The notes beneath the pieces were generated by a model. It saw only the letters and a program-made list of their open reading frames with translations. It had not been told where the DNA came from and did no database searches. Below, piece by piece: positions 2,197 through 23,185 of a stretch of 33,086 bases of DNA; the stretch's first letter is position 1; each line of letters starts with the position of its first letter. Source of the DNA: Alphaproteobacteria bacterium (GTDB lineage: Bacteria > Pseudomonadota > Alphaproteobacteria > Rs-D84); the NCBI GenBank assembly GCA_016927395.1, contig JAFGMU010000038.1, forward strand, positions 1-33,086, read 5' to 3'. Made by a program: the position numbers and the translations under genes.

Positions 2197-4617
2197 TTAT
2201 TTCCAGTTTGTTGGAATTGCTGCATAATCTGATAATCCAGTTGCGCCAATATATGTATAAGCATCATTATAATAATACGTCTGGGGCCATACATCATAAA
2301 GATGTGTTATACCATCTGGCATTAATGCTGATTCACCAGTTAATCCGGAACAATTCTGAAATGTTCTATCAAACATACTTGCTCGTGATGAACCTGAAAT
2401 ATCACCAAATAATCCAACTGGTATTGATGTTAATCCACTGCAATTTGTAAAAGTTCCACTAAACATATAATCAGCTGGTGTTCCAGACAAATTACCAAAC
2501 AATCCTGATGGAATCGGGCCCGTTAATCCGGAACAGTTATTAAATGTTTGTTGGAACATATTATTGGCGGGTTTGCCAGATATTGTCCCAAACAGGTTCG
2601 CTGGTATTTCACCGGTCAATCCCGAACACCCACTAAAAGTACTAGTGAACATATTTATTGCGGGTATTCCAGAAATTCCGCCAAATAATCCATCTGGGAT
2701 ATTTCCAGTTAATCCAGAACAATTCTGAAATGTTTGATAAAACATATATGGTCGTGGTGTGCCAACGATACCGTCGAACAAACCATCTGAAATTGATGTT
2801 AAACCGGAACAACCATAAAATGTTCCGTAAAACATATATTGTGCCGGTGCGCCAGATAAATTACCAAATAAATCACCTGGAATTGCACCGGTCAATCCCG
2901 GACAGTTAATAAAAGTATTTTGAAACATATATTGCGCCGGTGCACCAGATAAATTACCGAACAGGTTTGCTGGGATTGTTCCGGTCAGTCCAACGCAACC
3001 TGCGAATGTACCCTTGTACATATAATCTGCTGGTGCGCCGGAAATTCCAGAAAAAAGTCCACTTGGAATTGATGTTAATCCAGAACAATTATAAAATGTA
3101 TCTTCAAACATTCTGATTGCGGGTGTTCCAGAAATTCCGGCGAATAATCCAGACGGAATTGGCCCGGTTAATCCGGAACAATTATAAAATGTCCTGGTGA
3201 ACATATATTGTGCCGGTGTGCCAGAAATCCCAGAGAATAATCCAGATGGAATTGAACCAGTCAGACCAGAACATCCCTGAAAAGTTCCTAAAAACATATT
3301 TACTGCCGGCGCACCGGAAATTCCATCAAATAATCCAGATGGTATTTCTCCGGTCAGTCCAACACAACCATTAAAAGTATTTTGAAACATAGACTGTGCT
3401 GGTGCACCAGACAAATTACCAAATAATCCAGACGGTATGGTACCACTAAGGTTTAAACAGCTATCAAATGTTTGTCCGAACATAGCAGTTGCCGGTGCAC
3501 CAGAAATCCCAGAAAACAATCCAGATGGAATTGAACCAGTTAATCCAATGCATCCCCTAAATGTTCCATAAAACATACTTATTGCCGGTGCGCCAGATAA
3601 ATTACCAAACAACCCAGATGGAATTGAACCAGTCAGACCGGTGCAACCAGCAAATGTATAATTAAACATATACTGTGCTGGTGCACCGGATAAATTACCA
3701 AATAATCCAGATGGTATCGAACCAGTTAATCCCCTGCATCCATTAAATGTATAGTTAAATATAGAATTTGCTGGCGCACCGGATAAATTACCAAACAGTC
3801 CAGATGGTATTTCCCCAGTCAGCTTTGTGCAACCATCAAAAGTTCTACTAAACATATTTGCCACTGGTGTCCCAGATATACCAGAAAATAAATATTTTGG
3901 TATTGAACCAACAAGGTTTGTGCAACCAGAAAATGTCAGATTAAAATTTGGTTGTGTTTCAGATGTACCACCAGAACCAATTGTGGGAAATATCTTTCCC
4001 AAACTACCACCAATTCGTAAAACTTTTTGGTAATTATAAGTATATGAAGGTTCATATATTTTGAATGTCGTAAATGTTGAATATCCAGTTGCAAGTCCGG
4101 TAAGTTTTACCCTGTATGAACCAGCAACAGAATATGTATGTGGATAATTCGATAAAGCGGCGGTTGTTTTTTCTATAACCTCCAGGGGGGATCCATCACC
4201 CCAATCAATATAAAACTTACCCTTGGCAGCGATTGATAGTCCAAATTTATCAGTAACATTAGTTGTTAAAATATAAAATGCAGGTTCTACAGAAACAGGT
4301 GGGTTTACAGTATTAATCAAGCTGGTAATCGCCATATCAACAGCAACAGTACTGGCAGCATTTTCGACCGCCAGTGGGCTGGAACCATATGTTGTTGGTG
4401 TTCCAGATAATTCATTTGCCTTATCAATGGTTTCCAGTAAATATTTCATATTCACAGCACCCTGGATATTTGGAATACCACTGTTGTATGGAACACCAAT
4501 TCCCCAAACTGAATTTATGGAACTATGTACGTATTCTGCACTGGCAACTTTACCAGTTGCGCCAGCATTAAAACTGATTAGTAAAAACATTAAAGAGATA
4601 AATAATTTTTTTATCAT
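2197..4617 (-). CDS. Large secreted tandem-repeat (LRR/BspA-like) surface protein with PKD-like N-terminal segment
   Basis: Signal peptide (MIKKLFISLMFLLISFNAGATG), SAEYVHSSI motif, FYIDWGDGS...HTYSVAGSYRVKL segment, then repeats of consensus FxxTFxGCxGLTGxIPSGLFGNLSGAPAxxM. Confidence 0.8.
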   Translation of the reverse strand: MIKKLFISLMFLLISFNAGATGKVASAEYVHSSINSVWGIGVPYNSGIPNIQGAVNMKYLLETIDKANELSGTPTTYGSSPLAVENAASTVAVDMAITSLINTVNPPVSVEPAFYILTTNVTDKFGLSIAAKGKFYIDWGDGSPLEVIEKTTAALSNYPHTYSVAGSYRVKLTGLATGYSTFTTFKIYEPSYTYNYQKVLRIGGSLGKIFPTIGSGGTSETQPNFNLTFSGCTNLVGSIPKYLFSGISGTPVANMFSRTFDGCTKLTGEIPSGLFGNLSGAPANSIFNYTFNGCRGLTGSIPSGLFGNLSGAPAQYMFNYTFAGCTGLTGSIPSGLFGNLSGAPAISMFYGTFRGCIGLTGSIPSGLFSGISGAPATAMFGQTFDSCLNLSGTIPSGLFGNLSGAPAQSMFQNTFNGCVGLTGEIPSGLFDGISGAPAVNMFLGTFQGCSGLTGSIPSGLFSGISGTPAQYMFTRTFYNCSGLTGPIPSGLFAGISGTPAIRMFEDTFYNCSGLTSIPSGLFSGISGAPADYMYKGTFAGCVGLTGTIPANLFGNLSGAPAQYMFQNTFINCPGLTGAIPGDLFGNLSGAPAQYMFYGTFYGCSGLTSISDGLFDGIVGTPRPYMFYQTFQNCSGLTGNIPDGLFGGISGIPAINMFTSTFSGCSGLTGEIPANLFGTISGKPANNMFQQTFNNCSGLTGPIPSGLFGNLSGTPADYMFSGTFTNCSGLTSIPVGLFGDISGSSRASMFDRTFQNCSGLTGESALMPDGITHLYDVWPQTYYYNDAYTYIGATGLSDYAAIPTNWK
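2374..3945 (-). repeat. Protein-coding tandem repeats, 17 full units (14 of 31 aa, 3 of 30 aa), about 93 bp each; 18th partial unit continues to about 2332
   Basis: Counted by hand from the translation (aa 225-748 of the 806-aa ORF). Confidence 0.9.
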
Positions 4618-5159: not shown

Positions 5160-6974
5160 CTATCTTTCGTTTGAAGAAAATGAATTTATAGCAGAAAAAT
5201 ATTTTCCATTTTCATCTTTAACCAAATCTTTTGGGTGTCCGTCTTCTACTATTTTACCATTTTCAAGAACAATTATACGATCCATACCTTGTGCAATAAA
5301 AGGATCGTGTGTTATTACAATCATTGTTCTTCCGTTACCATAATCTGCAAAATCTTTTATATTTGCTAATACTTCGCTGCGTAATTTTGGATCTAATCCC
5401 TTTTCAGGTTCGTCCATTATAACAATAGGTGATGGTGCTAAAAATGCTCTAGCAAGTGCTAATCTTTGTTGTTCTCCACCGGAAAGAGTGTTTGCATTAT
5501 GACCTACCTTGGTTTCCAGTTTTTCTGGTCTGGAATTAACCAAATCCAGCAGTTTTGCCTTACTTAAAGCAAATTCTATTTCCGTGTCACTTGCATCAGG
5601 TTTTACAAGTGTTAAATTTTCACGAAAACTGCGGTCTAAAAACCCCGAATTTTGTGGAATATAACGAACAAACTTTCGCAAAGAACGCAATTTAATGTCA
5701 TCATTGTTATACTCGCCGATTTTAATTTTTCCTGATGTAAGTTCATATTCACGCAATAACAAAGACATTAAAGAAGTTTTTCCAGCTCCAGAATCACCTA
5801 ATATTGCGATTTTTTGTCCCCCTGGTATTTTTAGGTTAAAATCTTTCAATACTTCTTTTTCGCCATCTTTATAACTGTGATTTACATTATTAAATTCTAT
5901 GTCTGGAATTTTATTTCCAAATTTATCCAAAGGCAAATCAATAGCATTTTCTTTATCTTTTATCAACGGAATGTGGTTTAATATTTCCATTGCATCCCTG
6001 TACTCGGTAAGATTTCTTTTTATGGATGTGAATGTATTACCAAGATTTGTGGTTGCACTTGAAAATCTACTTACAGAATCAATTAGTGTTACTAAATCAC
6101 CAATTTTTGAATGTTGTTTTTTTAATACTCTATATGCAGTTCCAAAAACAGCAGCATTAAAAAATGTATTAACCAACATAGATTTAACACTTTTTTTACG
6201 TTCTAATTCAGAAATTCTTGCCCAGTATCTTTTTAATTTACCAGTTTCGTTTTTTAATATTTCAGAATATTCTTCTTCATTTCCAGTTCTTTGAATTATA
6301 TCAGTATTACCAGTAATATCACCCATTCTGGAGTAAATAGCATCATTATTTTTATTGAATTTTTTACGCAATGGGCGCATTTTATTTTCATGCCAGAAAT
6401 TCCAAGCAATATTTGCGCTGGAATATAAAACAACACCAGCTAGTATTAATGGGCTGATTGTGCCCAATATGGCACCACTGGTAATAGTTTGCGACGTTGA
6501 GTTTGTTAAATTAGTCAGATCACGTGTGATACCTTGGACGGATTGTCGCGCACGGTTTTTTGCCTGATTAAAAGCGGGTAGGGGATTATCGTTTCTAAAA
6601 CTCTTATCTTCTCCTATATACTTGGTTCTGCAATAAGCTTCGAAATTTATAAAAATTTCTCGTCCTAATTCGGTTTCAGATTTATATTTTTGTGAATTCA
6701 TATATCCGTTAAAAATATCCATCATATATGCCATTCCACCATAAATAGCAACTTCTGGATTGGCAAGACCATTCAAACCTGTTGCGGAATTTATCCCCAG
6801 TCCCCAAATTTTTGGTCTAAATGATGCAACAGCACCATTCAAAGCGGATAATAATATAGATTTTATAAATTTTTTCTTTGGGAATGTGTCGGCGTTCAAA
6901 ATCTTGTATATAGCTCTTAAAGCTTCAGTTGCGCTGATTTTAACGTCTTTTAATTCTGTTTCTTTTTTTTTCAT
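5160..6974 (-). CDS. ABC transporter, fused permease/ATP-binding protein
   Basis: Walker A GDSGAGKTS, signature LSGGEQQRLALARAFL, Walker B PIVIMDEP, H-loop ITHD; N-terminal hydrophobic TM region. Confidence 0.9.
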   Translation of the reverse strand: MKKKETELKDVKISATEALRAIYKILNADTFPKKKFIKSILLSALNGAVASFRPKIWGLGINSATGLNGLANPEVAIYGGMAYMMDIFNGYMNSQKYKSETELGREIFINFEAYCRTKYIGEDKSFRNDNPLPAFNQAKNRARQSVQGITRDLTNLTNSTSQTITSGAILGTISPLILAGVVLYSSANIAWNFWHENKMRPLRKKFNKNNDAIYSRMGDITGNTDIIQRTGNEEEYSEILKNETGKLKRYWARISELERKKSVKSMLVNTFFNAAVFGTAYRVLKKQHSKIGDLVTLIDSVSRFSSATTNLGNTFTSIKRNLTEYRDAMEILNHIPLIKDKENAIDLPLDKFGNKIPDIEFNNVNHSYKDGEKEVLKDFNLKIPGGQKIAILGDSGAGKTSLMSLLLREYELTSGKIKIGEYNNDDIKLRSLRKFVRYIPQNSGFLDRSFRENLTLVKPDASDTEIEFALSKAKLLDLVNSRPEKLETKVGHNANTLSGGEQQRLALARAFLAPSPIVIMDEPEKGLDPKLRSEVLANIKDFADYGNGRTMIVITHDPFIAQGMDRIIVLENGKIVEDGHPKDLVKDENGKYFSAINSFSSNER

Positions 6975-21304: not shown

Positions 21305-21330
21305 AAAATCCGCCGATTGGCGGTTTTTTT
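21302..21330. terminator. Terminator between convergent genes
   Basis: aaaaaatccgcc-gatt-ggcggttttttt. Confidence 0.7.
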
Positions 21331-22205
21331 TAATTTGAAATTTTCAGAATTGGAATCCCCAGAAAATAAATTTTTGTTATACCATTACTGAAAACTTTTT
21401 TGCGTGCCAATGTAAATTTACCAAGAAATTTTAAGCGTTCATGGCGCAGCATTTTGATTTTATTATTATCAATTAAACTGTTTTTTTGCATAAAATCTGC
21501 GACTTGCTGGCGAACAGCAGTCAGATTTTGTTTTTTGTCTTCTTTTTTTGCAGCTGTAATTAATGACCCGGTACGATTTTTATAATAATAAACAGTATTT
21601 GGAACCAGAACAATTTTATTTGCTGTACAGACGACATTAATCATAATTTTCAAATCTTCCATAATTTTTAAATCTTCTGGAAATTTAAATTTATTTGATG
21701 ACCAAAAATCACGAAGAATTAGATATCGCCAAGAATATCCATCATTTTGAACATTTGTAATATCCAGTTTATCTTGTGGGTTGGAAATTACAATTTTTTC
21801 ATCCCATATACGATTTGTATCGGAACATCGTTCGTTTATGTATCCGGCGACTGCAATATCGGCATTTGTGGATTCTGCGGCATCGAACAAGTTTTTATAA
21901 AAATCCAAATTTATAAAATCATCTGAATCAATAAAGTGCAAATATTTTCCACGTGCAGATTTTATACCGACATTTCGTGCTGCGGACACGCCACGGTTTT
22001 CGGGTTGTTTAATAACGTGTATACGGGGGTCAGTTGTTGCGATTGAATCAACGATGGATTCTGTGTGGTCGGTTGGCGCATCCAGAATCAATATTAATTC
22101 CCAATCAGAAAAAGATTGGCATAAAACGTTATCGATGGTTTGTTGTATGTATTTTTCGACATTATAAACCGGCATGATTATTGAAATTGATGGTAAAAGA
22201 TTCAT
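21330..22205 (-). CDS. Glycosyltransferase family 2
   Basis: SIIMPVYNVEKYIQQTIDNVLCQSFSDWELILILDAPTD...GVSAARNVGIKSARGKYLHFIDSDDF. Confidence 0.93.
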   Translation of the reverse strand: MNLLPSISIIMPVYNVEKYIQQTIDNVLCQSFSDWELILILDAPTDHTESIVDSIATTDPRIHVIKQPENRGVSAARNVGIKSARGKYLHFIDSDDFINLDFYKNLFDAAESTNADIAVAGYINERCSDTNRIWDEKIVISNPQDKLDITNVQNDGYSWRYLILRDFWSSNKFKFPEDLKIMEDLKIMINVVCTANKIVLVPNTVYYYKNRTGSLITAAKKEDKKQNLTAVRQQVADFMQKNSLIDNNKIKMLRHERLKFLGKFTLARKKVFSNGITKIYFLGIPILKISN

Positions 22206-22231
22206 TTTTTAACCCCTGTTTTATTAAATGG

Positions 22232-22283
22232 GTGGGGGCAGGTGCAAAAAATCGGTTGAAGCGAAACCTGCAAAAACCCCCAC
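22232..22283. other. Strong inverted repeat in the 5' leader of the glycosyltransferase gene
   Basis: GTGGGG(G) 22232-22238 / CCCCCAC 22277-22283 plus GCAGGT 22238-22243 / ACCTGC 22266-22271. Confidence 0.7.
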
Positions 22284-22480
22284 GAAAAAACCGCCATTAA
22301 AAAAGGGCGGTTGGAGGTTCTAAACTACTCGAAGAATAGCGTGCTTATTCGGCCGAAGCCTTATTCACATCCCTCCAACCGTAAAGGTTTTTGGGTTGTA
22401 AATTTTACATATCGCAAAAAACGACATAACTTCGAAGAGGTTTAGAATCCCCGACATTGGAACACCCAACGTCACAGCGA
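22283..22480 (-). ncRNA. Candidate structured noncoding RNA or attenuator leader, identity unknown
   Basis: No ORF; GGTTGGAGG/CCTCCAACC stem (22309-22317 with 22372-22380), GTTTAGAA/TTCTAAAC long-range complement (22440-22447 with 22318-22325), GGC-CGAA-GCC tetraloop, ending in minus-strand terminator AACCGCC-loop-GGCGGTTTTTTT. Confidence 0.45.
22289..22312 (-). terminator. Rho-independent terminator/attenuator
   Basis: AACCGCC (22312-22306) pairs with GGCGGTT (22295-22289), T6 tract on minus strand. Confidence 0.6.
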
Positions 22481-22509
22481 TTATGAATTAAAATATTTTG
22501 TAATACAAT

Positions 22510-22535
22510 AAAAAAATACCGCCATTCGGCGGTGT
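22510..22535 (-). terminator. Terminator of the S24 repressor gene
   Basis: accgcc-attc-ggcggt, T7 tract on minus strand. Confidence 0.7.
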
Positions 22536-22540
22536 AGGAA

Positions 22541-23185
22541 CTATCCAAGTTTGGAAATGTATTTGCCTATGGCATTAAAATTATCATCTGTTATATCAAT
22601 GGGTTTATTTTCTAAATCATTCGTATTGTCTGACAACAATTGACCTATATATGTACCATCGCCTTTTGGAATTCTAATAACGCGTTTTACTTTTGCACCA
22701 TCATCAAGCCTGCATAGAATAATATCGTTGTTTGAAGGTATTTCACCCAGCTGAAATTTTCTAAATAATAATAAATCACCGTCTTGAAAAGTTGGTAACA
22801 TGGAAGTTCCTGATATTTCTACTACAATAAGATCTTCAGGTTTGTATGATGTCTTATTTGTTTTTATTGTAGTTGTGTCAATGTCGTCCGGGATTTTTTT
22901 TTCATCGTTTCCTGCCTTGGCAATGATTCGTGGGACAACAATAGTATCTAATTGATCGGCACTTATATAATCACCATTGTTAAAATCAACACCTAGAATT
23001 TTATATTTTTTCCCATTTAATTTTTTTATTAAACCACTACCTAATAATCCATTTAAATGATGTAAAATCAATGGTTTACTAACTTCACCCATGCCCAAAC
23101 GATCATTGTTTACGCATCTTTCTATTTCAGTTAATGTAAGTTCTCGTCCGTCTTGCAAACAGGCGATAATTTGTTTTTTTATCAT
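22541..23185 (-). CDS. LexA/CI-like transcriptional repressor, peptidase S24 domain with N-terminal winged helix
   Basis: VVEISGTSMLPTFQDGDLLLFRK (Ser) and DDGAKVKRVIRI (Lys) S24 motifs; N-terminal winged-helix-like region. Confidence 0.8.
   Translation of the reverse strand: MIKKQIIACLQDGRELTLTEIERCVNNDRLGMGEVSKPLILHHLNGLLGSGLIKKLNGKKYKILGVDFNNGDYISADQLDTIVVPRIIAKAGNDEKKIPDDIDTTTIKTNKTSYKPEDLIVVEISGTSMLPTFQDGDLLLFRKFQLGEIPSNNDIILCRLDDGAKVKRVIRIPKGDGTYIGQLLSDNTNDLENKPIDITDDNFNAIGKYISKLG

Follow-up and report, generated by a model that had tools for sequence, protein, structure and literature searches.

A putative sRNA-Xcc1-related subfamily of C4-type RNA leaders, multiplied in gut bacteria with reduced genomes

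Results

A structured spacer upstream of a glycosyltransferase gene

The window analyzed here is a stretch of 33,086 nucleotides from an alphaproteobacterial contig (JAFGMU010000038.1, assembly GCA_016927395.1). Within it, a region of 335 nt (22206-22540) separates a gene encoding an S24-type peptidase from a minus-strand gene encoding a family 2 glycosyltransferase (PF00535, E 1.1e-34). A first-pass annotation had described this region as an ORF-free leader of the glycosyltransferase gene with more complementarity than an ordinary spacer, and these points are borne out: an ORF check found none longer than 47 aa in the region, on which ground a coded peptide was rejected, and the predicted fold energy is -113.9 kcal/mol, as against -81.7 +/- 5.6 kcal/mol in shuffled sequences (z -5.8). 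All segments named at that stage, GGTTGGAGG (22380-22372) and CCTCCAACC (22317-22309) included, were found on the minus strand where they had been placed. The features are listed below; the promoter-like elements are recognized by sequence, P4 by predicted folding, and the conserved core by alignment of type-A copies (defined below) and of the Rfam family RF02221.

22541-23185: upstream gene, S24-type peptidase, with its own terminator
22508-22503, minus: weak -35-like element TTGTAT
22480-22485, minus: -10-like promoter box CATAAT, 33 nt from P1a
22453-22473, minus: P0, hairpin GACGTTGG/CCAATGTC, the leader's first element; its counterpart is the first hairpin of phage P1 c4-a1b1
22437-22452, minus: small hairpin GGGG/CCTC presenting P1a in and beside its loop; a1-like
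22446-22440, minus: P1a, first part of the address, TCTAAAC; pairs with P1b
22430-22436, minus: P2a, second part of the address, TTCGAAG; b1-like
22405-22429, minus: P4, predicted hairpin in the TATGTCG...CGATATG region
22386-22395, minus: X, CCCAAAAACC, which can pair with P3a in place of P3b; a weak partner in the window copy but a strong one in most of type A
22372-22380, minus: P3a, GGTTGGAGG, 5' strand of a C4-like closing stem; its GG start is a putative RNase P site
22338-22371, minus: conserved core, containing a UUCG hairpin and AATAAG motifs
22329-22334, minus: P2b, CTTCGA, b'-like loop; pairs with P2a
22319-22325, minus: P1b, GTTTAGA, a'-like segment; pairs with P1a
22309-22317, minus: P3b, CCTCCAACC, 3' strand of the closing stem; the next bases are G-C-C (RCC motif)
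22285-22312, minus: intrinsic terminator AACCGCC/GGCGGTT plus T6 (arms 22312-22306 and 22295-22289)
21330-22205, minus: downstream gene, family 2 glycosyltransferase

The suspected attenuator-like overlap of stem and terminator is present, P3b having the bases AACC in common with the terminator arm. A second strong hairpin, GTGGGGG...CCCCCAC (22283-22232), was also correctly located; lying between the terminator and the start codon, it stretches the distance from leader to gene to about 103 nt. It is unique to the window copy within its genome, and is not a feature of the family. The adjoining S24-type peptidase could be a phage-type repressor; the N-terminal half of this protein has no confident Pfam match.

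Relationship to known RNA families

At gathering cut-offs, an Rfam scan of the whole window returned only two tRNAs, both outside the region. A permissive scan aligned sRNA-Xcc1 (RF02221) end to end with positions 22380-22301 (40.2 bits, E 1.2e-5; cut-off 53 bits), and this sub-threshold alignment is the sole significant Rfam match over the core. No match to C4 (RF01695; curated cut-off 45 bits) was found over the region at E values up to 5, while a phage P1 control scored 68.8 bits with the same model. The region is not filed under either family because it misses the score cut-offs of both. The scan that had been suggested as a check thus gave no confident match to a known RNA, and the idea of a 6S RNA was dropped, along with tmRNA and riboswitches, none of which matched in the gathering scan of the window or the permissive scan of the region. 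Three further matches, all far under their cut-offs, are read as chance: Esr41 (22508-22576), which spans the last part of the S24 gene and the terminator behind it; frnS (22449-22530), lying mostly upstream of the core; and Bp1_738, on the opposite strand. The phage records searched held no DNA similar to the region.

Copy number, hosts and subtypes

The annotation had recognized no family; from a single sequence it could not be seen that the window holds one copy of a large one, with P1/P2 addresses of the a1/b1 type. Its own genome (779 kb in 46 contigs) has about five copies, three of them close and two weaker; in the latter the arms match, and the next genes look, by inspection, to encode secreted proteins. 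A closed 1.0-Mb chromosome of Ca. Enterousia intestinigallinarum has 32. By DNA similarity, copies were detected in 21 of 60 relatives, all of the same family, and RF02221 matches in 44 of 60 members of the host family. Among named genomes, a scan for the exact stem pair found nearly all its matches in alphaproteobacterial MAGs from guts and termite guts; Candidatus Enterousia, a member of the GTDB order Rs-D84 (PMC12306168), is among them. A covariance model of the type-A core (R1) detected the element in 40 of the 41 family members scanned, one genome of about 0.9 Mb having as many as 49 matches, and more thinly in the other families of the order; this census rests largely on sequence, since the automatic structure of R1 holds only the closing stem and terminator.

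Two subtypes can be distinguished, type A, which has GGTTGGAGG and the AATAAG motifs and includes the window copy, and type B, which has GGTCGGGG. The latter is nearer canonical sRNA-Xcc1, and one member, from the host family (L024, 58 bits), scores above the RF02221 cut-off. RF02221 has a wide distribution: 36 of the 289 genomes scanned from the class had matches, as did 50 of the 299 from the phylum; of these, 35 exceeded the cut-off. Multiple copies of RF02221 occur outside the host family as well, in two proteobacterial genomes with 13 (G170) and 9 (G623) matches. Two arrangements deserve separate mention. One record (L112) has two inverted leader copies about 4 kb apart (2455-2519 and 6700-6765), each preceding a near-identical small HTH-like gene. 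Another (G035, OX097180.1) encodes small secreted paralogues (MKKHLIIAGIIC...AVTKCV), for example at 207895, 308486, 330181 and 364871, with one RNA leader per copy, so that leader and gene seem to have duplicated jointly.

Crossing helices and alternative folds

Two crossing pairings had been proposed for the window, implying a pseudoknot or alternative folds, and both are maintained in homologous loci by compensatory changes on their two sides. Among 115 type-A loci, P1 takes 35 different sequences, with as many as four kinds of Watson-Crick pair at a single position, and is nonetheless complementary at 7/7 positions in 92%, compared with 5% when partners are swapped. Contiguous pairs in P2 average 8.2, against 4.7 after swapping. 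Across 52 loci, pairing of the upstream strand averages -19.2 kcal/mol with the loop strand of the same locus and -12.1 kcal/mol with loop strands from the others. Two-sided changes were also seen in the closing stem, P3. Comparative evidence of this kind shows that both crossing helices are real.

An alternative partner for P3a is provided by X: a run of at least six contiguous X:P3a pairs can form in 80% of type-A and 50% of type-B loci (controls, 0-7%). In 130 of 139 type-A and 24 of 28 type-B loci, X:P3a occurs together with the P1/P2 helix in the predicted minimum, and there the terminator usually takes bases of P3b. Imposing the C4-like closing stem costs about 8-11 kcal/mol, a gap biased toward the nested fold since RNAfold cannot score a pseudoknot; the balance between the folds is uncertain for the same reason, the C4 fold's possible pseudoknot escaping the calculation. 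By predicted energy, the two folds are mutually exclusive.

Position relative to promoters and genes

In 90 of 115 type-A loci a start codon preceded by a Shine-Dalgarno sequence lies 30-65 nt past P3b; looking outward from the other side, this is so in one of 115. A TATAAT-like box (5/6 or better) precedes P1a in 101 of 108 type-A loci, most commonly at 33 nt, and the first base after the closing stem is A or G in 111 of 115. On one closed chromosome, 21 of 32 downstream proteins are signal-peptide-like by a simple rule, versus 179 of 724 ORFs genome-wide (Fisher p 6e-7). Further downstream products identified with Pfam include an autotransporter, an outer-membrane barrel, HTH proteins and glycosyltransferases.

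Specificity of the addresses

In the Ca. Enterousia intestinigallinarum chromosome, P1 is complementary at 7/7 positions in 30 of the 32 copies and every copy fits its own address best (32/32), with two non-cognate pairs coming close. Across six genomes the own address is the best fit for 91 of 95 type-A copies. Cross-talk was scored here by matching at the level of the arms, which replaced RNAduplex on long windows, a procedure that overstated it. Much of this orthogonality arises by chance alone at this address length, and compensatory drift in a purely cis-acting element could explain part of the address diversity.

Similar copies within a genome differ mainly in P2. Among pairs at least 86% identical elsewhere, P2b is shared in 1 of 31 within a genome versus 9 of 38 between genomes, the pairs not being independent of one another. 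Two copies from the same chromosome, for example, are 93% identical elsewhere and match at three of nine P2b positions, the random level. Divergence of P2 among similar copies in one genome is what selection against cross-talk would be expected to produce, and it is on this that the case for action in trans chiefly rests.

RF02221 relatives outside the host family

Among plasmid records and the genomes of other proteobacteria, most RF02221 members have the same upstream address. Ten of the proteins encoded downstream of such relatives were chosen partly for antirepressor-like sequence, so that their composition is not a frequency; eight are of antirepressor type at Pfam cut-offs (three Bro-N, three KilA-N, one P22_AR_N and one ORF6N), and the others are an HTH_3 protein and one with a sub-threshold pRha match. 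Antirepressor control, a trait of C4, is absent at the window copy, where the gene encodes a glycosyltransferase. Sequence signals for RNase P comprise the GG start of the stem, the A or G that follows the stem in type A and, in 12 of 33 RF02221 members from other lineages, a tRNA-like RCCA behind the stem. Targets of the a2/b2 type at the ribosome-binding site were found in 17% of type A against a background of 13%, and in 46% of type B against 20%; a general second target at this site is not supported for type A, and is only hinted at in type B. In a Neisseria record (L054), a second, weaker RF02221 match (3210-3280, 33.9 bits) lies just downstream of the first, before a KilA-N gene.

Discussion

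A proposed self-addressed leader

The region very probably belongs to a new subfamily of RNA leaders of the C4 type that is related to sRNA-Xcc1 and has multiplied in gut bacteria with reduced genomes. This identification is supported directly by the anatomy of the element, the two-sided compensatory pairing, folds that exclude each other by predicted energy, the fixed spacing to promoter and gene, and the many self-addressed copies. The full mechanism, in which a C4-type RNA has been recruited as an attenuator leader with copy-specific feedback, we regard as probable, with somewhat less assurance. What we infer in it comprises transcription, cleavage by RNase P, and both the existence and the sign of an effect in trans.

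Transcription would start near 22473, and the transcript would carry, in order, the two-part address (P1a in its hairpin, then P2a), the C4-like core, the intrinsic terminator and the gene, the core loops P2b and P1b being the complement of its own address. In one fold, the predicted default, X would pair with P3a and the address with the loops of the same molecule, leaving P3b free, so that the terminator could form and the gene would be off. In the other, the C4 fold, P3a would pair with P3b, the terminator would lose its base and the loops would be exposed; from this fold RNase P could release the core as an sRNA. The freed sRNA might then pair with the address on later transcripts of the same gene, biasing their choice of fold and providing feedback specific to that copy. 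The first-pass annotation had offered a stand-alone sRNA or a riboswitch-like leader; each is half right, as an RNA of the C4 type serves as a leader and its 3' portion is set free as an sRNA.

The same features might instead constitute a purely cis-acting attenuator or riboswitch-like leader, in which P1/P2 and X choose between terminator and read-through within one molecule, the cue being a ligand, a protein or the speed of transcription, and no sRNA acts in trans. Such a leader would account for the position before genes, the overlap with the terminator and the conservation of unpaired core motifs; helix sequences of cis elements do drift with compensation, and the address is paired in cis in most predicted minima. 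We nevertheless consider it rather unlikely, in that the loops to which the address is complementary belong to a core with the shape of C4, which is known to act in trans, the P2 sequences of similar copies in one genome have diverged far more than the remainder, sRNA-Xcc1 is a stable short RNA (PMC2996969), and the downstream genes are too varied to suggest one metabolite.

A trans-acting sRNA gene that merely ends upstream of a gene with its own promoter would fit the promoter-like box and intrinsic terminator, and sRNA-Xcc1 is described as a trans-acting sRNA in the titles of cited work. The near-fixed interval of 30-65 nt to the Shine-Dalgarno sequence and start, however, leaves little room for a second promoter, and the partner sequence lies within the same predicted transcript, which makes this arrangement very improbable. 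Even less credence can be given to a mobile repeat (a MITE or cassette end) spread by duplication with no regulatory role. While many dispersed copies exist and integron cassettes carry sRNA-Xcc1 (PMC12444791), the fixed orientation and gene spacing, the compensatory changes in several helices, and the retention of both terminator and promoter speak against it.

If our preferred reading of a C4-type leader with copy-specific feedback is extended to the whole cell, a more speculative picture emerges, which we hold only tentatively: gut alphaproteobacteria with 1-Mb genomes may have turned a phage immunity RNA into self-addressing control of the cell surface, with dozens of leader/sRNA pairs, each acting on its own gene only, and P2 selected to differ within the cell. 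If true, each surface protein could be set independently by RNA alone, and its on or off state might even be heritable. The findings also suggest the recruitment and multiplication of a phage-type immunity switch for the control of surface proteins in minimal genomes, and the tens of mutually silent addresses per cell would form a natural library for studies of RNA-pair orthogonality. Our literature search found nothing linking sRNA-Xcc1 with C4, which are listed separately in the one paper found that names both. The present comparison connects sRNA-Xcc1, a "virulence" sRNA of unknown mechanism, with the P1 immunity RNA; for the widespread RF02221 family it offers a mechanism that can be tested, together with an upstream partner missing from its Rfam model.

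Comparison with known systems

The closest likeness is to C4 of phages P1 and P7 (RF01695; c4-a1b1, RF03163; clan CL00128). The immunity region of phage P1 is annotated in the order a1, b1, C4, a2, b2, icd, ant; a1 (7 nt) and b1 (8 nt) pair with the C4 loops a' and b', and Rfam calls both C4 and c4-a1b1 there. Shared with it are, in the upstream half, a hairpin, a small hairpin with a1 in its loop, b1 and a further hairpin; in the downstream half, a closing stem beginning with GG, a UUCG hairpin, a b'-loop hairpin, a single-stranded a', the end of the stem and R-C-C; and upstream targets in the same predicted transcript that are complementary to a'/b' (here P1/P2). The window copy differs in lacking a match to the C4 models and a2/b2 at the ribosome site, and in a terminator that shares bases with the closing stem; the genes here encode mostly secreted proteins, glycosyltransferases and small HTH proteins rather than icd-ant. 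The Salmonella sRNA family isrK overlaps c4-a1b1 of phage P1 (L247, 631-712; 35.1 bits, cut-off 50), and may be another C4-type leader. The CI immunity RNA of satellite phage P4 may also be comparable: made from a leader, it base-pairs with parts of the leader and favors premature termination.

C4 is excised by RNase P at its GG start (PMC5320573; PMC11143913), the site being GG/GGW (PMC5320573). The RF02221 model of sRNA-Xcc1 (Xanthomonas, Xylella), which is in no Rfam clan, covers the present core end to end, the window copy differing in a shorter loop and in its GGTTGGAGG/AATAAG motifs; the model consists of the 87-nt core only, the address being left out, and the Xanthomonas RNA was mapped experimentally at 88 nt, about the length of the core (PMC2996969). 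The C4-derived "Group 1" sRNAs of Acinetobacter baumannii, with 21 sequences, resemble the present family in their many chromosomal copies, variable a' loop and apparent processing at a GG site (PMC5320573). Those RNAs, however, were described as sRNAs without a linked target leader, whereas every copy in the present family forms the leader of a gene and contains its own complement.
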